From contig JAIVFI010000034.1 of NCBI GenBank assembly GCA_025558095.1, forward strand, positions 1 through 64,000: a stretch of DNA of 64,000 bases, given 5' to 3'. The DNA comes from Hyaloraphidium curvatum (Eukaryota > Monoblepharomycota > Hyaloraphidiomycetes > Hyaloraphidiales > Hyaloraphidiaceae). The notes under the pieces were generated by a model. It was not told the origin of the DNA and did no database searches. It saw only the letters and a list, made by a program, of their open reading frames with translations. Position 1 is the stretch's first letter. Every line of letters begins with the position of its first letter. Shown here piece after piece: positions 1 through 58,398 of the stretch. The translations under genes and the position numbers were made by a program.

Positions 1-120
1 AAGCTCATGCGGTGCGGACGGTGCGGGATCGCGCGGTACTGCGGAGCGGATTGCCAGCGCGCGGCGTGGAAGGAGCACAAGAATGATTGTGTCCCCAAGG
101 ACATCAAGGGGAGCAAGTGA
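1..120 (+). CDS. MYND zinc-finger protein, C-terminal end only (copy A)
   Basis: The window opens inside a gene in frame 1. The 39 visible residues read through most of a MYND finger (C-G-R-C-G, Y-C-G-A-D-C-Q, H-K-N-D-C) and stop at TGA 118-120. MYND fingers bind two zinc ions and usually mediate protein-protein contacts. The residues match the tails of the other MYND copies in this window (B, C, E, F, G, I, K), so this is probably the 3' end of another member of that family. Everything upstream lies outside the window, so I cannot tell whether the gene is intact. Confidence 0.75.
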   Translation, partial: KLMRCGRCGIARYCGADCQRAAWKEHKNDCVPKDIKGSK

Positions 121-252
121 TTGATCGGTGCTCTGAGGGTGAACTCTGGGTGGGGCCCGTCGTGTTTGCACGGACCACGGGATCTACTGGACCCCAGAGC
201 GGACGGACTCGAGGCTCGCGCTGCGCACAACGTCAATCCAATGTGTAGATAT

Positions 253-2263
253 TCATTTGAACTCCAGCCCCTCGAACTTTCCCGACGTCCGCCACCCCTC
301 GATGTGCTTGAAGAACGCGACCGGCCCCTTCTCGTACCCGCGGTAGTACCTCGCCGTCGCGTCGTCCTGCTTGCCGTAGTTGTTGTAGTACCCCGCGAGG
401 CAATCATTGTCCCCCATGGTCTTGTGCGCCTTCCACCCGCGCTCCGCGATCCCCCGCACCCACGCGTCCTGCGCCTCCTGCGACACCTCGACCTCGCGGT
501 ACCCCTCCGCGACCGCATGCGCGACGACTGCGGCGATGGTATGCGCGCACTCGTTGATGTTGTGCGGGATGTTGCTCCCCAGCGCGGCGCCCTGCATCAT
601 GCCGCTCCAGAACAGGTTGGGCAGGCCGCGCGTGTGCATGCCGTGCAGGCTGCGCATCCGCCATTCGGGCCACGCTTCGGGGAGGGTGATCCCCGCGCGG
701 CCCGAGATGGGGTACATGGGCGGGGTGCCGACCGCGAAGCCCGAGGCCCAGATGATCATGTCCAGGCCGTACTCGGTGCCGTTGGCGACGAGGCCGTTCT
801 CGGTGACGGCGTCGATGCCTTTGCCGTCCGTGTCGACGAGGTGCACGTTGGGCAGGTTGAAGGACTGCAGGTACTCGTCGTGGAAGCCCGGCCTCTTGCC
901 TGCAGGGGAGGCGGGGTCACCGGTCCGCCAGGGATCTCCGGACACGCGACCCACAGAACTGCCGGTAGTAGGCCTTGAGCTTCGCGGCCGTCGCCTTGTC
1001 CTTGACCACCTCGTCGACGCGGGCCCGGATCGATTCCATGCGCTCAAAGTCGGCGTCGTCGTACGCGGCGTCCATCGCCTCCGGCGTGCGCTCCGCCGGC
1101 GGGAGGTCCTTGACCTTGTCGAGGATCCGGCGGCCGATGTCGGTCCTGAGCGCACTCCATGGTCAGGGTATCCCGCCCACGAGCGCAGCGCGGCAACCCA
1201 CCACCCGTCCATCACCAGGTCCCGGTCCTCGTAGAACCTCGACTCGTTGGCCGTGAAGTTCTCGATCCACCGCTTCTGCCATCCCGGCTTGGCGATCCCC
1301 GCGAACCAGTCGGGATCGATGGGCCCGTTGTTGCGGTAGTCGACCGAGGTGGGTGTGCGCTCTGCCTGTGCGTCAGCGCGGATGTGGGCCGGGGCGAGGG
1401 CGGCGCGGGACCCACGGAACACGAAGAGCTCCTTGGCCGCCTTGGCCAGCTCCGGCACCGCCTGGATTGCCGTGGCCCCGGTTCCCACGATCCCGACCTT
1501 CTTGTCCTTCAGCTTGTCCATGGGGTCGCCGCAATCGCTCCCCCCCGTGAGGTCGTACCGCCACCGCGATGTGTGGAACGAGACCCCCTTGAACGTCCCC
1601 AGCCCGGGGATCTCGGGGAGCTTCGGGATCGGGAACGGGGAGAGGGATATGCACACGAACTGCGAGGTGAACCTGTCCCCGCGGTCCGTCTCGACAGTCC
1701 ACACCGAGGTGGCGTCGTCCCACGTCAGGCCGACGACCGAGGTGTGGAACAGCGCCTCGTCGTAGAGGCCGTACTTGCGTCCTATCCGCTGGCAGTGCTC
1801 GAAGATCTCGTGTCCCGAGGCGTACTTGCGCGTCGGCATGTAGTTTGTTTCCTCCAGGAGCGGCATGTACACGAGCGAGGCGGTGTCGCACATGGCGCCG
1901 GGGTCTGCGGGCCGATTCAGTGCGCGCTACTAGCAGGCAGAGCAGGCAAGCCTACGGACATCGCGACCAATACCATGTCCCGCCGAAATCGCCCCCCGTC
2001 TCGACGATCCGCACGTCCTTGATCCCCCGCTCCGCCAGCCGCGCCCCGGCGGTCAGCCCGCCGAAGCCCCCGCCAACGTGCGTGTACGTCACGTGGTCGG
2101 CCACCGGGGCACGCTCGGCGATTGGCACGAAGGGGTCCGCGAGCAGGTCGGCGGCGGGCGGGCCGGCGAGGAGGCGGAACTGCGCGGGGCCGTCGTCGCG
2201 CTCGCGCTTGGCGCGCTCCTCGGCGTAGCGCGCCTCGAGCGCCGTGCGGTCGTACGCGGGCAT
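253..2263 (-). CDS. Baeyer-Villiger-type flavin-containing monooxygenase
   Basis: FAD/NADPH monooxygenase of the cyclohexanone/phenylacetone monooxygenase type, expected to insert oxygen next to a ketone; the substrate is not predictable. Four exons join in frame to 621 residues: 2263-1960, 1904-1181, 1145-955 and 899-253. Introns are 55, 35 and 55 nt. The N-terminus carries the FAD Rossmann motif V-G-G-G-F-G-G-L and the G-G-x-W-Y-W-x-R-Y-P-G-A motif, the latter restored only by splicing at 1960/1904. A second nucleotide-binding motif ([10 protein letters not shown]) follows. The family motif C-K-R-P-x-F-H-D-E-Y-L is restored exactly by splicing 955 to 899. The 35-nt intron (1146-1180) is the least certain junction, but it is needed to keep frame. 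The start at 2263 is the first Met before the FAD domain. Confidence 0.88.
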
Positions 2264-2828
2264 CGCGATACAATGGGTCGTGTGGAGACTGCGAAGGGGG
2301 AAAGGGCCGGGCAGAGGCAAGGAGGGAGACAGGCTTGGTCGATAGGAACGGGGTCCTTGCGTTCCTAGGAACCGCACTTGCCTCCAGCGCGCGACCGTGC
2401 ATGACGAAGCGAAGAGCAGCCATCTGTGTTGTACAATGCATCGAATTTATATCCGATTGTCCATCATTGCCTCCTTGCAGCCCTTCCTCGGGACTCCCTG
2501 CACTGTGGCGTTCCGCGGTCACGGTTGCCGACTTGCCTCCAGCCGTCACCCAACCGGCTCGGCGACGCCGACCACGCGCCGCCATTCCGATAGAAGAGCT
2601 TTAGAAGCCGAGGAAACAATGTTGCCTGGAGCAAGAAGGGCTGATTGAACATCCACGACCGCAAAGCTGTGTGCAGGGGGTCCTGTGCACCATTTCGCGG
2701 CTCTACAGGGTGCAATATTGCACGAAGAATACAAATGGGCCTCTCTGTCTTCCCCTTCCGTCCTGGCTCTCCCTCCACTTCGTTCTCCCTCCAGCGTGTC
2801 GTCCATTTCCACCGCCGTTCGACTGACT
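2264..2828. other. Intergenic region
   Basis: The 565 bases between the monooxygenase start and the stop of the next minus-strand gene hold only overlapping GC-driven reading frames without recognisable domains. They should contain the monooxygenase promoter. I see no repeat, RNA gene or clear TATA element here. Confidence 0.4.
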
Positions 2829-4830: not shown

Positions 4831-6031
4831 ATGTCGTGGAGCGCCTTCGACGAGGAGGGCTTCGTGGCCGAGGTCGACCGCCACCTCATCGCTGCCGACG
4901 AAGGCCTGGGCGGGCTGGTTGCTGCCGTCCGCGGAGGTCCGCAACCGCCCGCTTCTCTCGGACCCAGTGGAGAGCTCGCTTTCTTCGCCGCCGACGCCCT
5001 GGGCCGCAGGTTTATCTCTGCAGCCGGCCTCCTGCTGGCTCTGGTTTCCAGCAACCACACCTTCTCCCTGGGCGAGGAGGGCCAACGGAAGCTCGAAGAG
5101 AGCCGGGAGAAACTCGGCTCGTTCTTTGGCGCGTCAGAGGAAGGGGCTCCCGTCAGTGCACCGCCGTTGGAGCTCGTCCAGCGGGTTCTCCGGCATCACT
5201 TCCATAGGATCGTCGCCTTGGCCCGCCGATCCTTTGGCATCTTCCTAGACACGGATGTGCGCACCGCATGGGACTACCCCACGCTGGTGCATCTCGGCGA
5301 GTGCCACCGCAAGCACGCGCCGTTGCCAGCCTCGCGGTTCGCTCGCTTCGCAGGCGGTTTGGAGACCGACGGAGGACGCCCTGGCCCTGATCAGGATCCT
5401 GTGCATGTCGCAACCACTTCGTTCCCGCGTGGCCGGAAGTCCCGACTTCCTCGACGACTTGGCCCGCTGCGGGGTTTCCAACCCGCGTCTTCTCGGATTG
5501 CTCGCCGTCCCGGGTTGGCCCGACCAGGCACCGACCGCGGCGGTCGAATCCGCTGTGACGACCACAAGCAGCATCATGGCAATCCTGGTTCTCATCGCCA
5601 TGGAGCGCCCGAAACCCTGGAGGCGGCGGCACGAGGAGTGGACGTCGGAGACTGAGGTTCCCGCACTGTGGCTATCGGATGTGGTGCTGCATCTACTACT
5701 AAGTCTCGCGAAGGTGCGGAATACCGATCTGTTACAGACCCTGAGACCGGCCCCGAAGCAACTTCGGCGCTACTGACATTCGCTCACCAACGCGATCTTC
5801 CCGTGGCTATCGGAAGAGGGCGACGACCGATGGCTCCTCCGCCGCGACATGCTTGTCAACGTCATCCCCAAGGCGGACACTTGCGATCGGTGCGGAGAGG
5901 CGCAGGGCGAAGGGAACAGGCTCATTCGGTGCGGGCGTTGCGGGATGGCGCGGTACTGCGGCGTGGAGTGCCAGCGCGCCTCGTGGCAAGAGCACAAGAA
6001 GGACTGCATCCCCAGGAACTCGTCGTCTTGA
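4831..6031 (+). pseudogene. MYND-finger family member, copy B, frameshifted with in-frame stop
   Basis: Homologous along its whole length to copies C, E, F, G, I and K. It begins with the family start motif M-S-W-S-A-F-D-E-E-G-F-V-A-E-V. It continues through L-x-Q-R-V-L, D-T-D-V-R-T-A-W-D-Y-P-T, and then, in another frame, P-L-R-S-R-V-A-G, F-L-D-D-L-A-R-C and E-R-P-K-P-W-R-R-R. A complete MYND finger ends at 6031. A one-base frame change lies between about 5330 and 5380. An in-frame TGA (5774-5776) interrupts the segment aligned with Y-R-F-G-A-S-L-T-E-A-I of copy E. The 3' end, including 14 bases past the stop, is almost identical to copy E. Either a pseudogene or a gene expressed as fragments. 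Confidence 0.75.
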
Positions 6032-8738: not shown

Positions 8739-9960
8739 TCACTCTTCAACCGACGAGCCCCTCGGGGTGCAGTCCTTCTTGTGCTCCGTCCACGCCGCGC
8801 GCTGGCACTCGGCGCCGCAGTACCGCGCGATCCCGCACCGTGCACACCTCCTCAGCCGGTGCTCCCCGCGAGGTTTCAGGCATCCATCGCACCAGTCCGA
8901 GCCCGGAGTGACGTTGGTGACGGTTTCCCTCGCGATGATCAAGCCCCGTATCTCCCTCAAGCTCGCTGACGTGGATCCGGGCGTGATGGCCTCCTCCAGA
9001 GAGGCGTACAGCTGGAACAGATCCGTGCTCCTCTGGCCCAGCTCACCCCGGCGGTGCTTCTGCTTCATGAAATAGCTCAGCCTGAGGGCAAACCTGGCGG
9101 CGTACTGCGCAGGTACGGGGTCCCCCCCGCAGCGAACGCCCGCGAACCGCTCCCGCCAGAGCTTCGGCCTCTCCAGAACAAGCATGAGCACCAGACCGAG
9201 CAGGTCGCGCGTTTGGAGCACCGCATTCAGCGCGTCCGGTCTCGGTGCCTTCGACGGCCACTTCCTCAGGGCGAGCAGCTTGACGAGTGGTCCGTTCGCG
9301 ATCATGCACCGTGCGATCGCGTCGACGAGGTCTGTATCCTCCCCAGTCTTCGGCGAAGCGGTTTCAGCAATGAAACGGTCCTGATTAAAGACACGGCGGG
9401 TTGGGTCGGAGTCCAGAGCACGGCGAAGAAAGAACGGACATCGACGCCCGGCAGGCCGGCCGTGAAGAGGTCGCGTTTCAGCCCGCAAAGATGGTCCACG
9501 GTCGGATGGTTCCATTGCGAACGCAAGTCCTCGTCGGTGTAGGCCTCCAGGACCCGACGGCCGAGGGCGACGGCGCGGTGGAAAGGTGGCCGACGACGCG
9601 CTGCGCCAGGTCCGGCGGGGCCAGGCCGCCCGGCGGCGCCTTGCCCCGGGGAAAGAAAGCATCGAGAGGGGCAGGCTTGTCGGGATTCTTGATCCGCGCC
9701 CTGGCGTCGCCTTCGTGGACGGCGTTCTCCGCCACCTCATCGATGACCAAGCCCCCGATGAGGCCCGCGGCACGCTCGAGCCACGGCTTGGCGGCCCCTG
9801 CCGCTCGCACCGCAGGCTCCTTCGAGAGATTCGAGCCGGCGGGGAAGGTCGGCCCGGCCTTCGCGGCCGCGACGAGCGCGTCGAAGGCTTCTGCCCCGCC
9901 GGCCAGCTGGCGCTCGACCTCCGCCACGAAGCTCGCCTCGTCGAAGCTGCCCCAGGACAT
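8739..9960 (-). pseudogene. MYND-finger family member, copy C, with two frameshifts
   Basis: The start motif M-S-W-G-S-F-D-E-A-S-F-V-A-E-V begins at 9960. The frame runs to D-L-A-Q-R-V-V-G-H-L, where one base is missing near 9582; the sequence then continues as R-A-V-A-L-G-R-R-V-L and D-L-R-S-Q-W-N-H-P-T in another frame. A second one-base loss near 9345 (P-L-R-R-R-L-G / E-D-T-D-L-V-D-A-I-A-R-C) moves to the third frame, which carries V-L-E-R-P-K-L-W-R and a complete MYND finger (C-D-G-C ... C-A-R-C ... Y-C-G-A-E-C ... H-K-K-D-C). Each shift lies where paralogues read straight through, so introns are unlikely. All zinc ligands are intact, so decay appears recent. Confidence 0.75.
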
Positions 9961-10169
9961 GCTCTCCGCGGAGTCAAAGGAATCGCGCTTGTACGGGACT
10001 CGCAGGGAGCGAAGCCGGTGGGGTGTGCAAACAGACGGAGTTGGTGCGGCTGAGGTTTGTTTGCGCGGCCGGGAGGAGGTCGAGGAAGCCCCGCCGCGGG
10101 CCTTCTTGAGGATTACATGTCGCGCAAATGGCTGCTTCGCATGTGCGCGTCGGGGCGAATATCTCTGTT

Positions 10170-10246
10170 AACAATCTCTTGTGCCCGTTCCACGCCGCCC
10201 GCTGGCACTCTGTCCCGCAGTACTGCGCCATCCGGCACCGCATCAC
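10170..10246 (-). pseudogene. Remnant of a MYND finger (copy D)
   Basis: The frame reads M-R-C-R-M-A-Q-Y-C-G-T-E-C-Q-R-A-A-W and then N-G-H-K-R. Compared with intact copies it lacks a Cys-containing segment between the first and second knuckles (C-G-R-C-G shortened to C-R) and the final H-K-K-D-C cysteine. No family body is visible upstream because the thioesterase gene ends only 10 bases away at 10256. Best read as a relic left by a rearrangement. Confidence 0.6.
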
Positions 10247-10255
10247 ATCAGAGCA

Positions 10256-11339
10256 TCACAGCTTCGGCCCGCCCTTCTCCTTCCCGTTCCGGACGGCCCA
10301 CATCTGCTGCACCTGCCTCGCAACCGCCACCAGCTTCCCCGTGTTTGAATCCCACTGCCCGAACCCATCAGCTCCCCTCCTTCCCGACGACCAATCCTCA
10401 CGCGAACCCACCATGTGAAGCGCGTAGTCCCCAACCCCCTGCGTGATCGCCGTGTCCATGTCCGAGACGAAGAGCTTGCAGCCGGGCGAGGGGACGTGGA
10501 AGAAGTGGAGGGTCATGGCGATGGAACCGCTCATGCGGAGCTGGCGGGCGGGGCGCCGCCGGATGTGGTGGAATATGCGCTGGGGCAGTCGGCATGAATT
10601 AAGCGCGATGAAAGAACGGATCGTAGGCAACGCTCACGAAATCGGTCCAGATGTCGCCGAGGAGACATGCCGAAGCCAGGTCGAGCGGCCGGCCGTCCCG
10701 CCAGCCGACGTACGCCGCCGTCTTCTGCTTCCCGTTCAGCGGATCCGTCCCCTTGGGTATCCACGATACCTTGTAGTCGAAGTACTTTGACCGAAACGGC
10801 GACCCGTACTCCTCGCAGTCCTCCAGCGGCGGCAGCCGGGGCATCGCCATCTCCTCAAAGTCCAAATCGGCCCGGTCCCGCCGAAGCGACCCGTACGCGA
10901 ACGAGGCCGCGAAGTACACCGTCCCCGTCTCCTTGTCCCCGGCGCGGAGCTGCAGGTACGCTATGCTCTTCCCCTGCCTGACCGTCTCCACGTCGAACCG
11001 GACGGTCCGCGCGCCCTTGGTCGGCCCGAGGAACTGCGCCTGGATCGAGATCGGGTCCGGAAACCGGTCCCCGTTCCCGGTGTCGCGAAGGTACAGCTGG
11101 GCCGCGCGGTTGGACAGCGCCATCATGAAGCCGCCAAAGGCCGAGCCTCCCTCGTTCGACCAGTCCGAGCGCAGGGCGGCCTCGTAGGAGCCAGGGTGGC
11201 CGGGGAGAGGGGTTACCGCGTGGGTGACGCACTCGTCGAAGATGTAGAGTGGTGGTGCGGCGGATCCGAGGGCGGACGGGCCCACAGCCGCGCCGGAGCC
11301 GTCGGTAAGTGAATGTTCCGGGCGACTTCCGCCGTCCAT
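10256..11339 (-). CDS. TesB-like (hot-dog) acyl-CoA thioesterase family protein, second gene
   Basis: Exons 11339-10638 and 10579-10256 join in phase to 341 residues across a 58-nt intron (gtgagc...cccag). The first half shows the family layout: A-V-T-P-L-P-G-H-P-G-S-Y-E-A-A-L, then D-W-S-N-E-G-G-S-A-F-G-G-F. Next come P-D-P-I-S-I-Q-A-Q-F and A-R-T-V-R-F-D-V-E-T-V-R-Q-G. The second exon gives the second hot-dog (M-T-L-H-F-F-H-V-P). Predicted to act on acyl-CoA thioesters; substrate unknown. The start is uncertain: Met 11339 is used here, and an in-frame Met at 11504 would add 55 residues including a hydrophobic stretch. Only distantly similar to the thioesterase at 6167-7182. Confidence 0.75.
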
Positions 11340-11746: not shown

Positions 11747-12958
11747 ACGTCGTGGGGCTCCTTCGACGAGGCCGCGTTCCTGGCCGAGCTGGAGTGCCGC
11801 CTGGGCGCCGCCGGGGGCGCGTGCGACGCGCTCCTCGCCGCCGCCCAAGGCGGGCCGCAGCGCGACCCCGCCGACCCCGACGAGGCGCCCGCCGCCTTGG
11901 CCCAGTCGCGCGCCGCAACGGCCGCGCTGAACGGCTTGTGGGCGCCGCTCTTCGGGTTCCTGAAGGACGACGCCGCCGACCTCGTCGCGCTTCCCGCGCA
12001 GTCCGTCGCGGACCACCGGCTGAAGCTGCGGCCCTTTTTCGACCGCGGGGTCGTCCTGCCGCGCGATGGACCACCCGTGGATCTGGCGCAGAGGGTCTTG
12101 GGCCACCTCTTCCAGCGGATCGTCGCGCTCGGTCGCCGCTTCCTGCACGCGTTCCTGGACTCGGGTTTGCGGACTGCCTGGGGATATCCGACCATGGGCG
12201 AACTGTTCGGGCGGTACGAGGGGCTCGTCTCGGGGTCGCTCATCGGCTTCGATGTCCTGCCCTTCGCCGTGGTTTTCGGGGAACCGATGAACGGCGCCCA
12301 TACTCTGCTGAAGGCGGTGACTTGGTCCCAACCCCTACGCCGTCGCTACGCCGAGGATGTGGATCTGTTGGACGACATGGCGCGCTGCGCGGTCTCCAAC
12401 CCGTCGCTGCTGACCCTGTACGCCACGTCCGACTGGCGGTCTGCTGCTCCGGTGGAGGTCGTCGAGGAAGCCCTCTACCAGACCGCGGACATTATAGGAA
12501 CCCTCCTGATGCCGGTGCTCGAGCGGCCAAACCCCCTGCGCCGCCGCCTGGCCGCAAAACACCGCGCCGCGCGGGGCCAGCGGCTGCCCTTCCGCGACTC
12601 GCCCTGCCTCTGGGCTCCCGACGCCGCAAAGATGCTCATCGAGAGCCTCCCGTCCTCGCGCAGGGAGGCCTGCAACGGCAGTTACACCCAGCTGTACCGC
12701 TTCGGGGCGTCGCTGACCGAGGCGATCTTTCCGGGATCCGTCGCCGGGAGCCAGAACTTCCTCCTCCGCCGCAAGGCCCTGCACAGCGCGACGAGCGTGG
12801 CGGATAGCTGCGACGCCTGCGGGAAGCACCAGCAGGGCGAGCTGAAGCTGATGCGGTGCGGGCGCTGCGGGGTGGCGAGGTACTGCGGCGTGGAGTGCCA
12901 GCGCGCCTCGTGGAAGGAGCACAAGAAGGACTGCATCCCCAGGAACTCGTCGTCTTGA
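11747..12958 (+). CDS. MYND-finger family member, copy E, only copy with an uninterrupted body
   Basis: The most complete family member: 403 residues from the aligned start to the stop at 12958, without frameshift. Order: W-G-S-F-D-E-A-A-F-L-A-E-L-E (N-terminal motif), L-R-P-F-F-D-R-G, V-D-L-A-Q-R-V-L-G-H-L-F, A-L-G-R-R-F-L-H-A-F-L-D-S-G-L-R. Then P-L-R-R-R-Y-A-E-D-V-D-L-L-D-D-M-A-R-C, V-L-E-R-P-N-P-L-R-R-R and a full MYND finger. At the position of the ATG used by the other copies there is ACG (11747-11749), so translation must begin at ACG or at an upstream ATG such as 11309, which would give 549 residues. Function unknown; MYND fingers usually bind partner proteins. Confidence 0.7.
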   Translation, partial: TSWGSFDEAAFLAELECRLGAAGGACDALLAAAQGGPQRDPADPDEAPAALAQSRAATAALNGLWAPLFGFLKDDAADLVALPAQSVADHRLKLRPFFDRGVVLPRDGPPVDLAQRVLGHLFQRIVALGRRFLHAFLDSGLRTAWGYPTMGELFGRYEGLVSGSLIGFDVLPFAVVFGEPMNGAHTLLKAVTWSQPLRRRYAEDVDLLDDMARCAVSNPSLLTLYATSDWRSAAPVEVVEEALYQTADIIGTLLMPVLERPNPLRRRLAAKHRAARGQRLPFRDSPCLWAPDAAKMLIESLPSSRREACNGSYTQLYRFGASLTEAIFPGSVAGSQNFLLRRKALHSATSVADSCDACGKHQQGELKLMRCGRCGVARYCGVECQRASWKEHKKDCIPRNSSS

Positions 12959-13005: not shown

Positions 13006-13814
13006 TCACTCTTTGGCAGAGCTCTTTGGAACGCAGTCCCTCTTGTGCTCCTTCCACGCCGCGCGCTGGCAGTCTGCTCCGCAGTACCTCGCGATCCCGC
13101 AGCGCCCGCACCGCATCAGCTTCACCACGCCCCGAGACTTCCCGCAGTGATTGCAAGCGTCCTCCGCCATCGTCACATTCCTGAGGCTATCGCGGCTGGG
13201 AACCTACTCCGGGTCAATCGGAACGTAGTAGTTGAACTCCCCAGGCATCACGGTGTCCGAGATCCGCTTCGAAATCCGGAGCATGTCGGCGGAGACGCTC
13301 CGTATCGCACCACGCCGGTGAAGCGTCACCCCGTTGACAACATCATCTCGATCATCCAGTAGAACGGAATGTCCGTCAGACGCGTGTCGTCCCCTTCCTC
13401 GTCGATTTTGGTCGGATAGTTCCAAGCGGTCCGGATGTTCGTATCCAGATAGCATGCCAGGATCCGGCGCCCCAGGCCAATGAGCGGGTTCACGAGGTGG
13501 CCCAAGACGCGCTGCGCCAGTTCCGGCGGCGGTGGCGTCAGCGGAACTTCTTCGGAGCTTCGGAAGAATGGCACGAGCTTTGTGCGGTCGGTAGCCGGGT
13601 CCACCAGAAGGCCGGTGAGGAGCTGCACGGCGGGGGAAAGAGACTCCGTGGCACCCTGTGCTGCCGACAAGTTGCCAACATCGTCCCTCGCCTCGGTTTC
13701 CGCCGGCCCGTCTTTCGCGGCGGCAAGGAACTCGTCCACCAGCTGTCCCCCGGCGATGAGGTGGCGGTTGACCTCTGCCAAGAAGGCGCCCTCGTCGAAC
13801 GAGCTCCAGGACAT
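13006..13814 (-). pseudogene. MYND-finger family member, copy F, internally truncated
   Basis: The start motif M-S-W-S-S-F-D-E-G-A-F-L-A-E-V begins at 13814. The frame is good through P-E-L-A-Q-R-V-L-G-H-L and D-T-N-I-R-T-A-W-N-Y-P-T, but the middle block (P-L-R-R-R ... L-D-D-L-A-R-C ... E-R-P-N-P-W-R-R) is absent. After a frame change near 13330 the sequence continues to a TAG at 13204-13206. The same frame then runs on to a perfect MYND finger ending at 13006. All zinc-binding residues of the finger are present. Likely a deleted and interrupted copy; the finger alone, starting at a local Met, could still be a small open frame. Confidence 0.7.
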
Positions 13815-19674: not shown

Positions 19675-20909
19675 ATGTCCCGGAGCTCGTTCGACGAGGG
19701 CGCGTTCGTGGCCGAAGTGGAGCGCCAACTCAGCGCGGGGGACGCGGCACTCGACGAGGTTGTCGACCTTGGGCGGGCGGGTCCGAAATTCTTGGAATCC
19801 GACCGGATCCGAGAGCCAGCGGTGGAGGCCGCTCGAAAGGCGGCAAGGCTTTACGAGGCCGCGGACAACCTGCTCATCGTCCTCGCTTCCGACAAGAAGG
19901 AACTGCGCACCCTCGGCGCCTCGTGGGAAGCTATACCTGACCGCCGCGTGCTGCTGCGTCCTTTCTTCGGTGGCGGTCGGGTGCCAGAGATATCGCAGAA
20001 ACCCGCGGACGATGTCGCGAGGCGGGTCGTCGTGCGGCTCTTCCCGCGCACTGTCGCGATCACCCGGCGGTGCCTCAAGGCCTTCCTCGATTCCGACCTA
20101 CGTACCACGTGGAGCTACCCAACAATGGACCAGATCTCCCTGCTCTCGGACGAAGATTGGTCGCGTGCGGGCCAGTGGAAAGGCGGCTTCAACTTCGCGC
20201 GTTTCGGCAACATGTTTTGGACCACCATGCTCGCCGCGCAAGGCCCGCTCTTTAGGCTCGTTGTCTTTTCGAGGCCGCTTCGGCGGAGGCTCGCAGAGGA
20301 TACGGACCATCTCGACGATCTCGCGCGGTCCATTGTCTCGAACCTCGCTCCTGAGCTTGCTGTCGTTCCCAAACTTGCCGTCCTCGGCACCGGATCAAGT
20401 CCTTTCGGCCGCGCTGACCAATACTGGCGGTCTGATGGGCGGCCTGTTCACGCTCATTGTGGAAAGGCCCAATCCTTGGCGGCGCAAGGTGGACAACGGC
20501 GAGAGCGGACCTGCAGAGGGCCGGGTGACGGCTCCCGTCCTGTGGGTGTGCCGTGTGGCGCATACGGTACTACGCAGCATTCCCGAAGCTCGTTACCTGG
20601 GTGGAAAGCACCATTCGCAGCCCGCAACAAGTCTGGCAATCCCTACAGGAGGTTGTCGCACCGGGCCGCGCGACAGGGAACCCTGCGCGCAGCGACGGTC
20701 TCACTCTCCGGCGCGAACGCTTTTCTCGCAGCGGCTTTGCGCCCGACATTGACAGCTGTGATCACTGCGGGAAGCCGCGGGGCGAGGTGAAGCTGATGCG
20801 GTGCGGGCGGTGCGGGATCGCGATGTTCTGCGGAACGGATTGCCAGTGGGCGGCCTGGAAGGAGCACAAGAAGGTCTGCGTTCCGATGGGCTCGGCGTCC
20901 GGAAAGTAA
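19675..20909 (+). pseudogene. MYND-finger family member, copy G, with two frameshifts
   Basis: Begins M-S-R-S-S-F-D-E-G-A-F-V-A-E-V and is open through L-L-R-P-F-F-G-G-G, D-S-D-L-R-T-T-W-S-Y-P-T and P-L-R-R-R-L-A-E-D-T-D-H-L-D-D-L-A-R. At about 20340 the expected S-N-P-S-L-L is broken by a loss of two C residues. The next frame gives L-I-V-E-R-P-N-P-W-R-R-K. A further shift near 20560 enters the frame ending in a MYND finger at 20909. The finger is mostly intact (C-D-H-C, C-G-R-C, C-G-T-D-C, H-K-K-V-C). Paralogues read straight through these points, so indels rather than introns are the simpler explanation. Confidence 0.75.
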
Positions 20910-20934
20910 ATAAAACCGATCAGTCGACACCGCG

Positions 20935-22412: not shown

Positions 22413-23710
22413 ATGAGTCTCTCGAGTGTCCCCCATGTCAGCGATGCTGGCGGCTCTGAGCTCGTGAGACCCATCTACAGGCCTTGAACCATGAACTAAC
22501 TTTGCTCTTCGCAGGGGAACGTTGCTTTGCCGCCGGAACTGCTCCTCGCCGTTTTCCGCCTGTTTTGCCCGGATCTGCCGCTCGGTCAGCGGTTTGACGG
22601 TCCCTGGGCCCGCGCCGACTTTCCGACTGCGGCTACGATGCTACGTCTGAGCAGAGCTCACCACGAGCTCTTCCTGCCCGCCTTCGTAAAGACCGTGTGG
22701 ACGAAGGCGGTCGGCTACCGGAGGCGGCCGTACAATTGGAGGAGACTTTCGACAGCGAGCTACTGGAGAGCTTCATGCTTCGACCGGAAAAGTTCGCGTG
22801 GGTCCGCCGTCTGGACGTGAAGCTCGGCGATCCCGCGCAATTGCGCCTGGCCTTGCTGTGCCCCAACGTGGAGGAGCTTTCTGCGCGCAAGTGCTCCGTG
22901 TCGGACATCGCCCGCCTTCCATGCCTGGGGTCGATCCGTTTCCTGAGCCTGACGGCCTCGCCACGCGGCGTGTTTGATCTGGCCCCCGAAGCCCGGCACG
23001 CGACCACGCCCCGCCTGGACAACCTGCGGCGCCTGGCGCTGGAGGGTGCCCGGGCTTACGATCCCGATGTGCTTGACTGGTTCACCGAACGGAGCCCGAG
23101 TCTGGAGGGCATCGAGATCCGGTTCATCACGCGCCGCACGGATCAAGGTCCCCACCACTTTGGCGCCCCCTCTGCCGCCGCGCTCGCTCTGGTGGACCGG
23201 CTTTGCGTGGATTTGGGCCAGCCGGCGCTCGAGTTCGTCGAACCGCTCCTTCCGATCGTCCACCCCGGCACCAATCGGCGCGCCCTGCGCCCTTCCAGAC
23301 TGCAGGTGCGGTTCGCGTCGTGGCATCCCAATTATTTCCCGGTTGAACATGCAAAGAGGGTAGCCGCCTGGCGCTCCCTCGTCGATCTCCCCGGCCTCGA
23401 GGAGCTCTACGTTGCCCTCGTCGACACCACGTACATTTCGTTGGGCCTCCCCTCGACGCTTCGGAAGCTGCACCTCTGCGAGGCCATTCTCGGAGCCGGG
23501 TCAAGAGGCCGGCTCTCTGCACTTCAGAGCGCCATTTCGCCCGCAACCGAGGTCGTTCTGTGGAGCGTGTACCACCTGAGGCAGAACGAGGCGCTTGCGT
23601 TTTGGCAGAACAGGGCGGGGGACCGACCGGCCACGGCCACGGACGGAGATGAATCGGCGTTCTACAACCTTTTTCATCGGGAGGAGCGTGACTTAGTCAG
23701 TGGCCGTTGA
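22413..23710 (+). CDS. F-box-like/LRR-like protein 1
   Basis: Exon 1 (22413-22463, 17 codons) and a 51-nt intron (gtgaga, branch ACTAAC, cgcag) lead in phase to an F-box-like segment, L-P-P-E-L-L-L-A-V-F-R-L-F. The rest has LRR-like spacing (L-R-R-L-A-L-E, L-E-E-L-Y-V-A-L, L-R-K-L-H-L-C). A frame change near 22690-22745 separates the two parts. A 56-nt stretch (22690-22745, gtaaag...ttggag) could be an intron, but the next gene keeps an aligned coding segment there, so an indel is as likely. F-box proteins are substrate adaptors of SCF ubiquitin ligases; this role is inferred. A tandem paralogue follows at 23856. Confidence 0.6.
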
Positions 23711-23855: not shown

Positions 23856-25316
23856 ATGGAGAATCCCGCCTTTGAACGCGAGCCTCGCCTCGAAAGCGGT
23901 GCGCCCCCGGGGGACGCGTCCGCGACGCCCCTTCACGGCGATGCTTCCGGTGCTCATCGCACACGTTCCGAGCCCGTGGGGCGAACGATTTGCACTCATG
24001 CGCGCTGCCCGCTCATTGGAAAGCCCCACAGGAGCCCGTCGTGCTGCCGACGGAGCTGCTTATCGCGGTCTTCCGACACGTGTTCCCGGAACTGAAGCTC
24101 CGCCACTGGCAGTCGCCCTATGGGCCGTGGGAATTTGCGGACTTCCACACGGCCTCCAAGATGTTGCGCCTGAGCAGGTCCTGCCACCTGCTCCTCCTTC
24201 CCCTCCTCATGAAGACGATTTCTGTGTATGCCATCGAGCTCCTGCCGTGCCGCAGGAGCAGGAGCAAACGAGCCTTCAGAGAGACAATGAATCTCGGCTT
24301 GAAGGCTCAGGAGCATCTCATGAGCAGCGAAGCCAATTTCGTGCACGTTCGCTGCCTCGGGGTCGACTGGCGCTCCTCAGGTCAGAGTCAGAGGCGGCTC
24401 CCTCCTATGTGCCGGAACCTGGTGCAGCTCTTCGCCCGGAACGCTTCGCTCTCGGAAGTGGCTTCCATGCCGTGCGCAGACGTCCTGCGTGTCCTCGTTT
24501 TTTTCGCAAATGGATCGCGGCGCGCTGCGTTTGTTCGACGTGGCCCGCGACCTGCAGGTGCGGTTCCACAGTCTGGAGAGGCTCGTCCTCGAGCGGGCTT
24601 ACGACCCGGACCTGCTGGACTGGTTCGCCGAGCGGAGCCCCCGCCTGCGCGGCATCGAGATCTTGTCGCCGACGTGCCTCGGGAGCCGGCCGCCTCGCCC
24701 GCCGAAGCCGGAAACGTTAGCCCTCGTTGACAGGCTGTGCATCGAGTTCCGTCTGGACTCGGCGGAACAGATTGCCGTGGCCATGGCTTCGGTGAAGCTG
24801 CCCTGCTCCGGCAGGCCCGCACTGCGGCCTCGGGTGCTGCAGGTGCGCAACGCCTTCAGCTGGTGGGTATCTTTCACCGGCCCCGACAGGGAGAACGTGC
24901 ATGCTCGCACGGCATGGCGCGCACTGGTGGGTCTCGATGGGATCGAGGAGCTGTACCTCGTCAACTCGGACACGACCATCCTTTCGTGCGGGCTACCGGA
25001 GGGCCTCCGGAAGCTGCGCCTGTGTTGGTGCTTCCTCAATGCGGGACCCAACCGTGCACTCGGCGGCGTGAAGGCCGTGCTCGGTCCCACCGTGGAGGTG
25101 TCCTTCCTCGGCCCGTACCTCCCGTTCGAACCGCAGGATGTCGATGGCACCTTCTGGGAGCCGGGAATGGCCGCCGTAGAGCTCGCTTTCTGGCGTGCGA
25201 GATCCGTGGACGGGGCCTTGGAAGCAGTTTCGGACGACATCGAGATGGAACTGCCCAGGGCGCTGGGAGAGAAGCTCGACGTGCTTTGTTCGCTGGCCTA
25301 CCGCGAGATCTGGTGA
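23856..25316 (+). CDS. F-box-like/LRR-like protein 2, with a frame change at a T7 run
   Basis: Tandem paralogue of the preceding gene with the same structure: exon 1 23856-23975 (40 codons), a 56-nt intron (gtgggg...cacag), then L-P-T-E-L-L-I-A-V-F-R. Conserved blocks shared with paralogue 1 include A-Y-D-P-D-L-L-D-W-F, R-S-P-R-L-R-G-I-E-I, A-L-V-D-R-L-C and G-I-E-E-L-Y-L-V. At about 24500, within a run of seven T, the reading moves to another frame. The residues on both sides align with paralogue 1 without a gap, so this is an indel or a sequence error rather than an intron. Function inferred only from the F-box-like start. Confidence 0.55.
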
Positions 25317-39118: not shown

Positions 39119-39964
39119 ATGCGCTCCCACCCCGTCCTCTTCCTGGCCGTTTTGCTGGTCGCCGTTTTTCAGGTCGAAGGGTGGGCGCCTGCCCGGCGGC
39201 GGCGGACGCCGGCCTGACCCCGCCCGCCGCAGCTCGCCGTACGGGTCCCTCGCCGACCCCGTCGAGCCCCGCGCGCCGAGCCGCACCCTCGTCGCGCAGT
39301 GCTCCGAGTGCCCCGACGACATCGACGTGTTCTGCGAGCCGCACGAGGCCGGCGGCGTGGCGTGCGTGCGGTACGGCGACAACATGCGGTCTCTTTACCG
39401 CCGCTACGCGGGCGACTTCGGCGACGCCTGCGACGTCGGCAACACTTGCAAGTGGGCGAATACCACCTGCTCCGGAGGCATCTGCGTGGCGTGCGGAGGC
39501 ACCGGCGAGCCCTGCTGCGCGAGCGACACCTGTTCCGAGTTCAACACCTGCTCGTCGGGTACCTGCGAGTCGTGCGGAGGTGGGTGGGCCGGGCGGTAAC
39601 CTCCCGTCCTTTCTCGTGCTGACGGGTCCCGACCCAGGCCGGGCCCAATCGTGCTGCCCTACGGGGACGAGCTGCCAAGGGACGGACATGTGCTCCTCCG
39701 GCATGGGAAACACCTGCCGCGAATGCGGCTTGCCTGACGAATCCTGCTGTGCCGACAACACGTGCTTGGCCGGAGCGGAGTGCTACATCCGCGTCTGCAA
39801 GTTTTGCGGCCGTGGGTCCTCCGCCGCCCGGTCCGCGGGTCTGTTGCTGACAAGGCCGTCGCCCCCCCTGCGCAGTCATTGGCTATCCTTGCTGCCTGAT
39901 CAAGACGCCGGAGTGTTCGTTCGGGACCTGCAACATCGGCACCCGTAAGTGCGAAAACTCGTAG
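39119..39964 (+). CDS. Secreted Cys-module protein 2 with cysteine-rich repeats
   Basis: Four exons (39119-39180, 39233-39579, 39638-39811, 39876-39964) join to 223 residues. A signal peptide is followed by the module: L-V-A-Q-C-S-E-C-P-D-D, V-F-C-E-P, G-G-V-A-C-V-R-Y and S-L-Y-R-R-Y. Then come repeats of C-x(5)-C-x(4)-C with C-G-x-x-G-E-P-C-C-A and C-C-x-x-x-x-x-C spacing, suggesting disulfide-knot units. The last three exons each begin and end in the same phase, which would let repeats be added or lost as units. Very similar to module 4 (46825-47654). Function unknown; the frame was only visible after splicing. Confidence 0.78.
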
Positions 39965-42345: not shown

Positions 42346-42373
42346 TCCATAACATTCTTACCCGTTGGAGACC

Positions 42374-43163
42374 ATGTCCTGGAGCGGCTTCCACGAGGCC
42401 GGCTTCGTGGCCGACGACCGCCACCTCATCGCCGCTGGTGCCGCTTTGGACGCCCTTCTCGCCGCCGCCCGCCGAGTCGAGGCCTCTGCTTCGAAAGACA
42501 CCCGGCAAGAACTCGCCAAGCGCGAGGGAGCCGCTCCGAAAGCCGCGCTGGAGGCGTCCATCTTCCTGTTCAAGGGCTTCCTGCACGAGGAGGCACGAGC
42601 CACGGCGCTGTCCCGCCTTGAAGGCGAACTGCGGGACGAAGACCGCATCGGTTGGGCCTGGCAAGGTTCTTTCTTGGCGTCCAGCAAGCGCGCATTCCAA
42701 TGGGCCAGGCACCGGGGGACGTCAACCACCGCATCATCATGGCCGTCTTCCACCGCGTACTCGCGCTGGGCCGCAGGTTCCTCGGACCTGCGCAAGCGTT
42801 GGAAGTACCCGACCGTGGAGGAGCTGAGGAGGCGTGGCGCCGATATGGGCAGACCGACCCCGTGGGAAGTGCCCCAGGTCGAACCCCTCCTGGATCTCCT
42901 CTGGCTGCCCACCAGATACACCCTGGCGCTCGTCAGGAGCATGGGCTACTCGCGCCCTCTGCGTCGGCGTCTGGCGGAGGATCTCGGTTTCGTCGACGAC
43001 CTCGCGCTCTGCTGCGCCTCCAACGAGCCGACCGTCGTGTGGCAGGGCAATCCCTGGCCATTGCAGGATCCGACCATGCACAGGCAATTTGCACTTGACG
43101 CCACAGCTTTCATGTTCTCAGTGCTGGTGCAGCTCCTGGCCGAACGCCCGGACCCGTGGCGAC
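42374..43163 (+). pseudogene. MYND-finger family member, copy I part a, body without finger
   Basis: Starts M-S-W-S-G-F-H-E-A-G-F-V-A at 42374. The frame is good, then drops out and back by two compensating indels (about 42655-42780); inside that stretch A-V-F-H-R-V-L-A-L-G-R-R-F-L reads in another frame. It resumes at S-D-L-R-K-R-W-K-Y-P-T and continues through P-L-R-R-R-L-A-E-D and A-E-R-P-D-P-W-R-R. It then runs into a second partial copy instead of a MYND finger. Clearly a family member, but not able to encode the normal protein. Confidence 0.7.
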
Positions 43164-43854
43164 GTTCCCTATCATGCTCTTTGGTTCCGTGCTGTGGAAC
43201 CCGATGATCAGGGCCAGGGAGCTGATGAAGCTCGTCACGTGGGCCAAACCTCTACGCGTCCGGATCGCGGAGGACGTCGAAACGGTCGAGAACCTCGCTC
43301 TGTGCACGGTATCGAACGTCTCCCTGGTCAGGCTGCGAGCGATCCCGGACTGGTCCCGGACGGCTTCTAAGGAAGATCTCGACGACGCTCTCTACTATAT
43401 CAAGGACTGCATCGGGGATCTCGCCATGCTCGCTTTGGAGCGGCCCAAGCTCTGGCAACGCCGATGCGCCGAGCGAGCCGGGTGCCCCGTGCTCTCGACG
43501 GCGGCAGCGGCGTAGATGCTCGTCAATGCCGTCGCCAGGGAACGGCGTGAGGACGTCAAGGACAACTGGAACTTGCTACTCCGCCACTAGGCCTCCCTCA
43601 AGGAGGCGGTCATGCCAGGAAGCGTCAGGACGCCCACATATCCTGGCTTTCTGATTCGGCGCGACGTCTTCAACAGCGTGACCCAGGAGGCCGATGTCTG
43701 CGATTGCTGCGGTAAGCCGCGAGGAGGCGACGTCAAGCTGATGCGGTGCGGGCGGTGCGGGATCGCGCGTTACTGCGGGGCCGAGTGCCAGCGTGCGGCG
43801 TGGAAGGAGCACAAAAAGGACTGTGTCCAGAGAAGTTCTCCGGTAGAGAAGTGA
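43164..43854 (+). pseudogene. MYND-finger family member, copy I part b, duplicated middle plus finger
   Basis: A second copy of the family middle begins directly after part a: L-M-K-L-V-T-W-A-K-P-L-R-V-R-I-A-E-D-V, L-A-L-C-T-V-S-N and A-L-E-R-P-K-L-W-Q-R-R. It meets TAG at 43513-43515. A second in-frame TAG follows in L-L-R-H-stop-A-S-L-K-E-A-V, the same position where copy B has TGA. An intact MYND finger (C-D-C-C-G-K-P, C-G-R-C, Y-C-G-A-E-C, H-K-K-D-C) ends at 43854. The finger with about 25 residues of leader is open from a Met at 43612 and might be made alone. Confidence 0.7.
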
Positions 43855-46824: not shown

Positions 46825-47654
46825 ATGAGATCCGGCCTCCCCGTGCTCCTCGCCCTCGCCCTCGCCTTCTCCGGGGCCCTGGCGTGAGTTCCCGCGCGGG
46901 CGGGTGGCGGCGGCGCTGATACCCCGGGCAGGGCGCCGCAGCTGGCCGAGCGCGGCGCCGCGCGCACGCTCGTCGCGCAGTGCTCCGAGTGCCCCGACGA
47001 CATCGACGTGTTCTGCGAGCCGGACGTGGGCGGCCGCGTCGCGTGCGTGCGGTACGCCGACAACCTGCGGTCGCTGTACCGCCGCTACGCGGGCGACGTG
47101 AACGACGTCTGCGGGCCGTCCAACACCTGCAACTCGGCGTCCGCAATCTGCTCGGGGGGCTTCTGCGTCGCTTGCGGGGGCAACGGCGAGCCGTGCTGTG
47201 CCTCGAGCACGTGCTCGACAAACCATTACTGCTACGGGGGCACCCAGTGCAACCCGTGCGGAGGTCGGCCGGCCCGCTCCGCTGACTCCGCCCGGCGCTA
47301 ATCGCCCCCCGCCGCCCCGCGCAGCCCTGGGACAGATCTGCTGCCCGACGCTCGACCCGCTGCTTCGGTGCCACGGCGACGGAGTCGCCTGCAACTGGAA
47401 CAACAACGCTTGCATGGCGTGCGGCACCATCCCCAACGGGCCCTGCTGCTCCGACAACACGTGCTCCTCCATCGGCACGCAGTGCGTGGGGACCGTGTGC
47501 CTGGAGTGCGGCAGTGGGTACCGCTTTCGCCTGCCGCGTGCCGCGTCGCTGACCTCGGGTCCCCGCGACGGCAGGGGTGGGGAAGCCGTGCTGTTCGTCG
47601 GGCAGCCCGTGCCCCACTTCGGGCACCTGCAACGGCTTTGCGCAGTGCGTGTAG
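46825..47654 (+). CDS. Secreted Cys-module protein 4 with cysteine-rich repeats
   Basis: Four exons (46825-46883, 46932-47263, 47325-47513, 47575-47654) join to 219 residues. Same structure as module 2: signal peptide, first intron in phase 2, T-L-V-A-Q-C-S-E-C-P, V-F-C-E-P, V-A-C-V-R-Y-A-D-N and S-L-Y-R-R-Y-A-G-D. Cys repeats follow with C-G-G-N-G-E-P-C-C-A and C-C-S-D-N-T-C units, ending G-F-A-Q-C-V. Module 2 and this gene are clear paralogues, differing most in the repeat part. No membrane anchor or GPI signal is seen, so release from the cell is likely. Function unknown. Confidence 0.78.
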
Positions 47655-48854: not shown

Positions 48855-48904
48855 GGAGCCGGAGCTGCAAAAGCCCGGTTCTTTTGGCGGCACACTTCCG
48901 ATCT

Positions 48905-49200
48905 TCACTTCGTCGCCGGGGAGCTCCTCGGGACGCAGTCCTTCTTGTGCTCCTTCTAGGCCGCCCGCTGGCAGGCCCCGGAGTACCGCGCGATCCGGCA
49001 CCGTCCGCAGCGCGTCAAAAGTTACCTCACCTTTGGGCTTTGCGCAGCAATCGCACCAATCCGCATCGGTAGAAAGGTGGCCAGCTTGTATCTCGTGTTT
49101 TCCTCGTGTCCGGGAAGCACAACCGCGCGGCCAGGCACCCCACGAAGCCCGAGAACTGGTCCCAAGCCTCCCGGTAGCGCGTCCTATAGTGACAATAGAA
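48905..49200 (-). pseudogene. MYND-finger remnant (copy J)
   Basis: Minus-strand sequence matches the C-terminal family segment: C-D-C-C-A-K-P-K-G-E-V at about 49020-49060. After a one-base shift it reads C-G-R-C-R-I-A-R-Y with the next Cys changed to Ser, then C-Q-R-A-A with the Trp codon changed to TAG, then K-E-H-K-K-D-C and a stop at 48905. The shift, the lost zinc ligand and the internal stop show that this finger is dead. Upstream sequence towards 49200 may hold traces of the family body but cannot be aligned with confidence. Confidence 0.65.
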
Positions 49201-51788: not shown

Positions 51789-51925
51789 GATGTCGGCCCC
51801 GTCACGCCAACGGCGTACAGCTTCACCGCAACGGGGACGGTCACCTACACGTGGGTCATCCGGGATGGTCCTCCGGCCCCGGCGCCCTTGCTGAGCCTTC
51901 CTGCTCCGCGCAGCCGAGCGGATAG
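51789..51925 (+). pseudogene. 3' end remnant of a second module-5-like gene
   Basis: Coding traces V-T-P-T-A-Y-S-F-T-A-T-G-T-V-T-Y-T match the end of the repeats in module 5. They are followed by a gtgggt...gcgcag stretch and a tiny terminal exon (CCG AGC GGA TAG) like that gene's last intron and exon. The rest of the gene is missing, so this is a truncated duplicate about 0.6 kb upstream of the complete one. Confidence 0.65.
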
Positions 51926-52530
51926 GGTGTCTCGGTTGCTGCAGGCCTGCGGTGTTCTGCGGGACTGCGGGTCGGCGTGAGCAGGTGGCTCTCAATGGAT
52001 GTTGGCGCTTCGGCAAGGGGGGCTTTCACCGGCCAGTTGGACGGATTGATGGTGCACAGAGCTCGCGATGGATCGTGCTCTCTATGGAATGGCATCGGTC
52101 TATTAGTAGTCTTCGATCCTCAGTCCGCGAGGGAACCCCACCGGGACCTGCGTCAAGCGGAGTCTCGACAAGAGCGGGGGCCCGAGACGCAACGGCGCCG
52201 AAACTGACGAGGGGTAAAGAGGCCAATCTCGATCGTGAATGGCCAGTTGCGGAGCCGAAGGTGTTCCAGGACTTATGTCGATGGCTCTCGTCCAATGCCG
52301 TGCTCCGCCGCGGCCGAGAGGACCCATTGACTTCCCGGACTGCTGCGCCGGCCACCCAAAACAGAGCGTGCAAAACAGCCGAATCCCGCCAAACGCCGGT
52401 CTCCATGCCCTGTCGAAACGCAGGCAAAGTTGCCATGCCGACCCAGTCTCCCTCTACCGCGGCGGCGCGCGTTCGGGCGGGGTTCGGCGTCAGCAACCAA
52501 ATAAGCCGGAGACGTCCTGCAACGCCGGAG
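51926..52530. other. Upstream region of secreted module 5
   Basis: About 600 bases with scattered open frames on both strands but no domain or paralogue match. Presumed promoter of the gene at 52531. Confidence 0.35.
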
Positions 52531-53706
52531 ATGGCGATCCGGATGCCCGCCGCGCTGCTCTGTCTGCTGGTCGCCATTCTTCTCGTCTGCTGCGGGGTTG
52601 TTGCGTCGCCCAGCGGCGCCCCGCCCGTGTTCCGGCGGTCCTGCGGGGAGTGCGCGGGGACGGACTATTGGTGCGCCCCGCTGCCCGGCTCCTCCCGCAA
52701 CGAAGCTGATTGCAGCGCCCTGCTGCGCCGCGTCACGCAGCGAGTTCGCTTACCCCGGGACGCCCGAGGGCCACGTCGCCTGCTTGGCATACGCCGACTC
52801 GAAGCTGCTCCACCGTCGGTACATTGTGCCCGGGCCGCTCCTGCAGGCCAGGCTGGCCGTCAGGGAGGTGGCAAACGGCGGCAGCCTGGCCCTGGATGCC
52901 ACCAGCTCCGCCACGGGCTTCACTACCCTCACCATCTCCAACGCCGGCAACGCACCACTCGCCGTCAGCGCGGTCGCCATCGCCGGCGACGGTTGGGGAG
53001 CCGCGGAACCCTCGCCGCCGGTCATATCTGCGGGTGGCACCGCCGACCTCGAGATTTACGTCACCCACGGGGGGCCGACCTCGGCGCTGACTACCGCCAC
53101 CCAAACTGCGACATTCACCGTCCTCGCCACGAACCAAGCGGGCGACGCGCCCGTCACGCCGACGGCGTACAGCTTCACGGCCACGGGCACCGTCACCTAC
53201 ACGGTGCGCTGGTCCCGGGCGATCCTCCCGCATCGATGCTGAAGCCTTCCTGCCCCGCGCAGCCGCCCCCTCGGGCCACCCTGACCGTCCGGGAAGTCGC
53301 CAACGGCGGCAGCCTCAACCTGGAAGCCCCGGACTCCCCGTCACGCTTCACCACGCTCACCATCTCCAACGCCGGCGACGCCCCCCTGGCGGTTACCGCC
53401 GTCGCCATCTCGGGCGACGGATGGGGCGCCGCGGAACCCCAGCCCCCGGTCATTTCCGCGGGCGGCACCGCGGACCTCGAAATCTACGTCACCTACGGGG
53501 GCCCGACGACGGCCCTGACCACCGCAACCCCGAGCGCGACCTTCACCGTCTTGGCCACGAACCAGGCGGGCGACGGCCCCGTGACGCCAACGGCGTATAG
53601 CTTCACGGCCACGGGGACGGTCACCTACACTGTGGGTCTCGTGCCCGGGCTGTCGTCCGACATCATTGCTGAACCTTCCCGTCCCGCGCAGCCGGGGCCT
53701 TCCTGA
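52531..53706 (+). CDS. Secreted Cys-module protein 5 with tandem beta-sandwich repeats
   Basis: Four exons (52531-52670, 52741-53203, 53263-53631, 53692-53706) join to 328 residues. Signal peptide, then C-G-E-C-A-G-T-D-Y, a 70-nt intron inside the Cys codon (phase 2), C-E-F-A-Y-P-G-T-P-E-G-H-V-A-C and L-L-H-R-R-Y. Two repeats of about 120 residues follow, each beginning V-R-E-V-A-N-G-G-S-L and ending P-T-A-Y-S-F-T-A-T-G-T-V. They resemble choice-of-anchor/HYDIN-like Ig-type units. The second repeat is exactly one exon in phase 0, so repeats can be gained as exons. If the third exon is skipped, a stop at 53240-53242 ends the protein after one repeat. Confidence 0.74.
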   Translation: MAIRMPAALLCLLVAILLVCCGVVASPSGAPPVFRRSCGECAGTDYWCAPLPGSSRNEADCSALLRRVTQRVRLPRDARGPRRLLGIRRLEAAPPSVHCARAAPAGQAGRQGGGKRRQPGPGCHQLRHGLHYPHHLQRRQRTTRRQRGRHRRRRLGSRGTLAAGHICGWHRRPRDLRHPRGADLGADYRHPNCDIHRPRHEPSGRRARHADGVQLHGHGHRHLHGALVPGDPPASMLKPSCPAQPPPRATLTVREVANGGSLNLEAPDSPSRFTTLTISNAGDAPLAVTAVAISGDGWGAAEPQPPVISAGGTADLEIYVTYGGPTTALTTATPSATFTVLATNQAGDGPVTPTAYSFTATGTVTYTVGLVPGLSSDIIAEPSRPAQPGPS

Positions 53707-53793
53707 TGGAATCTTGGGGCTTGTGGGCTGCTAGCGGAACGAATTCATTCTAGCTTTCTAGACTGCAATACATGGTCGTCTGCCCGAGGCGAT

Positions 53794-55375: not shown

Positions 55376-55546
55376 TATTGACTTGCTTGAAGGGCCAAGG
55401 TGGTCGCCTCACGGTTAGGATGTTGCTGGATCATCGGAGTCAGTCGCCATGTGTATGTAATGCTGGTGCCACACTCGTTCTCGGGAGGAATTGTGTCTAT
55501 CTGAAGGAGCCTTCCAAAGTCCAAAACGCAACGCCAACGACCTCCC

Positions 55547-57169: not shown

Positions 57170-57391
57170 GGTGTGCTCGGGCGCGGGAAGTCGGTTGCTT
57201 GGCGGAAACGTTGGTTCCCGAAACTCGGCGCGGGAATGGCCGCGGTTGGCGTTGTTTGCCGCCTTTTGCCACAGAAGTTCAAGGGGTGGCTCCAGGACCC
57301 GTGGGCCGAGCCGCTGGTCCGGGATCCCATTGAGGTGGAGACCACGGTCCTCAGTGGGTTCCTCGCCGCGTACGGGCCATAGAAGGGGCTG

Positions 57392-57480
57392 AGTCAACGT
57401 TCGGCGACAGTTCTCGGCGGAGGTTTCTCCGGGATCACCACTGCCGCGAAACTGAAGGACGCCGGGATCACGGACTTCCC
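57392..57480 (+). pseudogene. Stray FAD-binding fragment of a flavin monooxygenase
   Basis: The plus frame reads T-V-L-G-G-G-F-S-G-I-T-T-A-A-K-L-K-D-A-G-I. It aligns with the FAD Rossmann start of the monooxygenase at 253-2263 ([14 protein letters not shown]). It has no further monooxygenase sequence and ends abruptly where MYND copy K begins. It is a relic joined to copy K by rearrangement. Confidence 0.55.
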
Positions 57481-57498
57481 GACATACCCGCTGACGAC

Positions 57499-58398
57499 CA
57501 GGACCGTACGGACATCTTGCCTTTCTTCGGTATCGCGGATCCTTGCGCCTTGCCCGTCGAGCGCGCACCCCCGGATCTCGCACAGCGAACGATCCGACGC
57601 CTTTTCAGCCCCATGGTGGCTGCCATTCGCCGTTTCACCGACGCGTACCTTGATTCGGACCTTCGAGCGGCTGGCAGTATCCCACTATCCAGGAGATGGT
57701 GACTCGTCACGATAGTTTCGCTTCTGGACCTTTGCAAGGCTTCAACAGAGACTCTTTCGCCGATACCCTGTGGAAACCTACGCTCGGGGCTCTCTTGCTG
57801 GCAAAAGCTACTCTCGTGGTCCCAACCGTGTCGGCGACGTATTGCCGAGGATGTGGCTCTGCTTGACAACATGGCCCGGTGCACTGCATCGAACCCCTAG
57901 CTGATCGTGATGCTGTCCATCCCGGAATTGCCGAAGGAGGCCGAAAACGAACTGATCCAGGTGCAATGTCCACATTCGTCGCGGAGAGACCTAACCCCTG
58001 GAGGCGGCAGATGGCGGAAGACGGTTCAAGCGGCCAAAATCTCACTCCACTCCAATGGATGAAGCTGGTCAACAGCCTCTCGGGGAGCCGCAGGTTCGAC
58101 CTCATCAACAGCGTCGTCCACCTCGTGAAGTTCTGCGATTCATTGCGCGAAGCTATGGATCCGGGATCCTGGAGGGGCCAGGGCTACTACCTCATTCATC
58201 CTCCGCCGCAGCAAGCTCATGAACGGTACCGCAGCCAGCGATTCTTGCGATCCCTGCGGGAAGACGCAGGGAGAGGTGAAGCTCATGAGGTGCAGCCGGT
58301 GCGGGAAGGCGCGATACTACGGGGCCGAATGCCAGCGGGCCGCGTGGAAGGAGCACAAGAAGGACTGCATCCCGCGGAGCTCAACGGCGGAGAAATAA
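57499..58398 (+). pseudogene. MYND-finger family member, copy K, degenerate and 5'-truncated
   Basis: Family sequence starts inside the body (D-I-L-P-F-F-G ... P-P-D-L-A-Q-R), continues A-Y-L-D-S-D-L-R-A-A-G, then breaks. Later blocks appear in other frames: R-R-R-I-A-E-D-V-A-L-L-D-N-M-A-R-C-T-A-S-N-P followed by TAG, then A-E-R-P-N-P-W-R-R-Q. A MYND finger ends at 58398 in which Y-C has become Y-Y (C-G-K-A-R-Y-Y-G-A-E-C), so one zinc ligand is lost. The family N-terminus is replaced by the flavoprotein relic. Confidence 0.7.

Follow-up and report, generated by a model that had tools for sequence, protein, structure and literature searches.

Mub1, a protein of budding and fission yeast, combines an Armadillo-type domain with a zf-MYND finger (PMC8645331) and serves as an adaptor that recruits the Ubr2 ubiquitin ligase to Dsn1 (PMC3567142). 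Fungal expansions of zf-MYND proteins have also been described, with 1 to 41 per genome across ten fungal genomes (PMC4469406) and 25 zf-MYND gene models in Moniliophthora perniciosa (PMC2644716). The proteins analyzed here, from Hyaloraphidium curvatum, have a MYND finger preceded by a predicted ARM/HEAT-like solenoid, a build that would resemble the published description of Mub1. Whereas Mub1 is one gene, the H. curvatum proteins belong to a large multigene family. We found no description of a family with such an N-terminal region in the open-access papers that we searched.

The window, the initial 64 kb of contig C34, lies in a setting of approximately 66% GC within a genome of 31.9 Mb in 55 contigs. 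A preliminary description had listed eleven loci (A-K) in it as members of an undescribed MYND-finger family with a fixed layout and its own conserved N-terminal region. We used copy E as the query and reference, with phmmer to recover copies and an intron- and frameshift-tolerant protein-to-DNA aligner to score lesions. Phmmer recovered region and finger pieces of the other copies where they had been described, with E-values down to 1e-40, confirming that the shared N-terminal region is real. Our own count gives eight E-type copies with traces of the region (B, C, D, E, F, H1, H2 and K) and three E-type remnants consisting of the finger only (A, J and one between C and E), while a further finger is of another kind (Table 1). 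The motif series is present as named (an MSWSxFDE start, LAQRVLGH, LGRR...LDSxLRTxWxYPT, PLRRRxAED and ERPNPWRRR, then MYND), but all scorable window copies carry lesions and the layout is intact in none. The copies do lie on both strands amid unrelated genes, and window ORFs near them encode Tim54 and a Fungal_trans transcription factor domain, as identified by Pfam, which mark the DNA as fungal.

Table 1 Features of the MYND family in the 64 kb window.
Feature	Position	Strand	Observations
Copy A	1-117	+	E-type MYND finger, 3' end; E 9.1e-18 (phmmer); Pfam MYND at C34:1-90
Copy B	4831-6031	+	ATG kept; frameshift ~5353 and one in-frame stop; disabled; GC3 0.78
Copy C	8739-9960	-	Full length, ATG kept; frameshifts ~9585 and ~9346; disabled; GC3 0.84
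MYND-only remnant between C and E	10154-10278	-	E 7e-6; blastn self-matches
Copy E	11747-12958	+	Sole window copy open from region to finger; GC3 0.89
N-terminal region of copy E	11750-12739	+	All-helical ARM/HEAT-like solenoid (predicted, AlphaFold2)
MYND finger of copy E	12809-12934	+	PF01753, E 2.2e-11, 44 bits
Copy D	13006-13814	-	ATG kept; ~150 aa internal deletion, frameshift, stop; disabled; GC3 0.76
Copy F	19675-20909	+	Full length, ATG kept; 2 frameshifts; disabled; GC3 0.76
MYND finger of another kind	28491-28716	+	Aligns to query 335-400 only, score 105; without E-type region; outside the clade
Copy H1	42362-43180	+	METMSWSGF start; frameshifted; ends after ERPDPWRR; without finger
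Copy H2	43129-43854	+	Starts mid-region; internal stops; terminal MYND; head-to-tail with H1
Copy J	48904-49088	-	MYND remnant; frameshift and stop
Copy K	57487-58398	+	Without first 94 residues; 4 frameshifts, 1 stop; GC3 0.72

Several other features of the window were recorded. The start of contig C34 falls inside the E-type finger at 1-117, as if the assembly broke at a repeated copy. A monooxygenase-like ORF at 253-1893 (minus strand), with no Pfam match at 0.001, appears to slip frame midway. Phosphoenolpyruvate carboxylase (PF00311), an enzyme that to our knowledge is absent from most fungi, is encoded in several pieces at 59971-63860 (minus strand). Two paralogous ORFs lie side by side at 22697-23710 and 24489-25316 (39% identity, E 1e-38), neither of them matching Pfam. 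A direct tandem repeat of 434 bp with 81% identity at 51794-53694 overlaps a long ORF, and a dispersed repeat pair of 250 bp (84% identity) occupies 39273-39520 and 46955-47201.

The fingers of copy E (44 bits) and copy C (40.7 bits) exceed the PF01753 cut-off of 22.7 bits, identifying them as zf-MYND. The closest solved MYND finger in the PDB is that of SMYD3 (E 2.2e-7). SMYD methyltransferases share the finger, but there it splits a SET domain, and SET is absent from copies E and C in Pfam searches at E up to 10; here MYND stands at the C-terminal end, and the same searches returned MYND-type models only. The finger is the best conserved part of the copies and the N-terminal region is divergent. 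Four-fold sites differ by 0.45 in the finger versus 0.63 in the region, which hints at gene conversion of the finger, and stays a hint because the compared pairs are non-independent.

We further characterized the N-terminal region, of about 330 residues, by sequence and by predicted structure. Pfam searches of 15 N-terminal regions at E up to 1 gave no match to a repeat model or to any other model for the region, and a profile search of the PDB gave no convincing chain. The best PDB match, a designed repeat protein, reached E 8e-4 over a short stretch only, the other matches being weak, and we took none of them as a sign of kinship. No relative was found in the prokaryote genomes searched with copy E. 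AlphaFold2 models, computed from alignments whose rows all derive from the window, reached pLDDT 83 and pTM 0.83 for the whole of copy E, and pLDDT 90.1 and pTM 0.88 for its N-terminal region alone, which was predicted to consist entirely of helices. Foldseek returned no match to the predicted model at E<0.001 (E>0.01), and a viral fold library likewise gave none at E<0.001. Structural superposition with VIA-align placed WAPL first (Z 14.1 over 233 residues, 4.1 Å), followed at Z 10-12 by further ARM/HEAT chains such as PELP1, p115, APC, importin alpha and ZYG11B; scores for APC, importin alpha, ZYG11B and CTNNBL1 were Z 10-11. Nearly all structural neighbors of the model are ARM/HEAT solenoids. 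The WAPL HEAT domain and the ARM proteins APC, importin alpha and ZYG11B are the nearest folds by VIA-align (Z 10-14), but they show no sequence similarity to the region at the Pfam or PDB level. Unrelated helical repeats can attain Z 13-14 through their common arrangement, and we therefore limit the claim to a predicted ARM/HEAT-like solenoid rather than any particular family. The lack of a Pfam match and of a convincing PDB match agrees with the suggestion that the region is undescribed, while its predicted fold is of a known kind.

To get a broader picture of the family, we turned to the whole genome, which contains at least 150 MYND fingers, every one above the Pfam cut-off; this figure comes from scoring the best 150 of 368 candidates and counts pseudogenes and double-finger loci too. 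From these best 150 hits, 60 loci were sampled as 2.25 kb stretches, mostly at alternate ranks. A profile of the N-terminal region found it in 20 of the 60 at the first pass and in 24 after iteration, the best reversed-sequence decoy scoring E 0.22; region and finger stand in a single frame in at least 11. The genome search extends the region beyond the window: it is common to a genome-wide MYND superfamily. The finger and a lineage-specific copy number are shared with the fungal zf-MYND expansions (PMC4469406, PMC2644716). The present set differs from them in its at least 150 fingers, pseudogenes included, and in the predicted solenoid on about 40% of the sampled ones, a share that is not an unbiased genome figure because sampling was from the best MYND hits. 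Searches with copy E, repeated with the protein of a gene on C28, revealed further E-type copies on C14, C15, C22, C28 and C42 and remoter relatives elsewhere. Many open-frame relatives exist in the genome. MYND loci are clustered, with 30 adjacent pairs less than 10 kb apart where 7.5 would be expected. They are also concentrated near contig ends, 60 of 140 lying within 100 kb of an end against 39.5 expected (52 of 132 against 37.0 when C34 is left out). A second MYND layout, with CxxCG and two more cysteines before a C-terminal finger, was seen in 10 of the 60 sampled loci (L039, L040, L049, L061, L069, L072, L080, L086, L087 and L088); the stretch around L080 includes a piece of the N-terminal region as well.

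Our preferred reading, to which we assign a probability of roughly 0.6, is that of a lineage-expanded family of Mub1-like build undergoing birth and death. Its members would be two-domain proteins, with an ARM/HEAT-type helical solenoid at the N-terminus and a MYND zinc finger at the C-terminus. As Mub1 likewise pairs a helical-repeat domain with a MYND finger, an adaptor role is the function that we tentatively regard as most likely, at odds slightly short of even: the solenoid may bind a partner protein, which the finger would dock to another protein in the manner of Mub1. The shared region, its genome-wide spread, the predicted fold, the lesions and the decay are computational results, whereas this role and the selective pressure behind the expansion are inferences.

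Two other functional readings were weighed. Many dozens of solenoid-MYND proteins might form a fast-turnover recognition repertoire (self/non-self, immune-like or parasite-sensing), in which the solenoid would vary and do the binding while the finger stayed constant and did the docking. The large copy number, the clustering and contig-end lean of the loci, the divergent region beside a conserved finger and the many dead copies would all suit such a repertoire. Among the copies, however, divergence is greater at codon position 3 than at positions 1 and 2, so that there is no sign of diversifying selection, and Pfam found no signaling or effector domain on copy E; we consider a repertoire unlikely. 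It is also improbable, in our estimate, that the finger rather than the region is the functional unit, acting in chromatin or RNA control. The conservation of the finger, the proximity of SMYD fingers in the PDB and the requirement of fission-yeast Mub1 for its finger in RNA control (PMC8645331) point in this direction, but at least 11 sampled loci have retained region and finger together, and Pfam found neither SET nor any other chromatin domain on copies E and C.

Inspection of the lesions bears on whether the window copies are genes at all. Copy E has 407 open residues (open frame 11750-12955), but carries ACG (11747-11749) in place of the ATG that is conserved in other copies, the nearest in-frame ATG lying approximately 290 bases upstream. 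Across the genome, a clean single-exon E-type gene, running from MAWSSFNEAAF through to its stop, was found at C28:535606-536796, the only one among 16 scored; loci L011, L012, L013, L015 and L017 have frameshifts or stops. Clean copies thus make up 1 of 16 E-type loci but 11 of 24 loci of the wider sample (Fisher p 0.012), a contrast whose control is mixed, since some wider-family loci are truncated by the 2.25 kb stretches. GC3 is 0.88-0.89 in the two open copies versus 0.69-0.78 in B, D, F, H and K, and falls as lesions increase (Spearman -0.78, p 0.002).

These observations leave it decidedly improbable that the copies are working multi-exon genes whose apparent breaks come from short introns or from indels in the assembly. 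The aligner did propose introns in some distant relatives, and the monooxygenase-like ORF seems frame-slipped too. In the window, however, the aligner chose no intron in B, C, D, F, J or K, preferring frameshifts in B, C, D, F and K, and its sole intron, in H, spans two partial copies. The clean C28 copy is single-exon, unrelated neighboring ORFs run unbroken for 733, 513 and 419 aa, and most frameshift sites lie outside homopolymers. Since GC3 declines with lesion number, which sequencing error would not produce, true decay is favored over assembly error. The window copies are therefore mostly pseudogenes rather than eleven working family members, introns do not explain the breaks, and copy E is a nearly intact survivor of the E-type clade. 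The excess divergence at codon position 3 indicates that the copies were long under coding constraint before breaking.

A phylogenetic tree of 15 rows, in which the outgroup branches are long, recovered the E-type copies as a supported clade (100/98) against members of the wider family. The C34 copies interleave with those of C14, C15, C22 and C42, although most inner forks are weak. D and F have approximately 220 bp of homologous 5' flank before the ATG in common, inverted relative to each other; flank alignment revealed no conserved element around all copies. Simple tandem duplication, already dismissed in the preliminary description, does not explain an intermixed tree and an inverted flank. 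Both fit dispersed DNA-level duplication with inversions, as read from the sequences. Retroposition from a single-exon parent is very improbable: copies that lack introns, lie scattered on both strands and are for the most part disabled do look like processed pseudogenes, but the clean copy is intronless too, which makes intron absence uninformative, the D/F flank upstream of the ATG fits duplication at the DNA level, alignment of the downstream flanks showed no common poly-A tract, and the copies are deeply divergent with past coding constraint. Under the favored birth-and-death reading, the E-type clade would have spread by dispersed duplication of DNA, diverged for long while coding constraint lasted and afterwards decayed for the most part, with the clean C28 gene and the nearly intact copy E as survivors.

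For annotation and gene counts, this means that window copies annotated as genes are mostly relics. The N-terminal region, for which there is no Pfam model, offers a concrete target for work on an uncharacterized family. If the size implied by the sample holds, a rare adaptor architecture would have become one of the larger gene families of this fungus.
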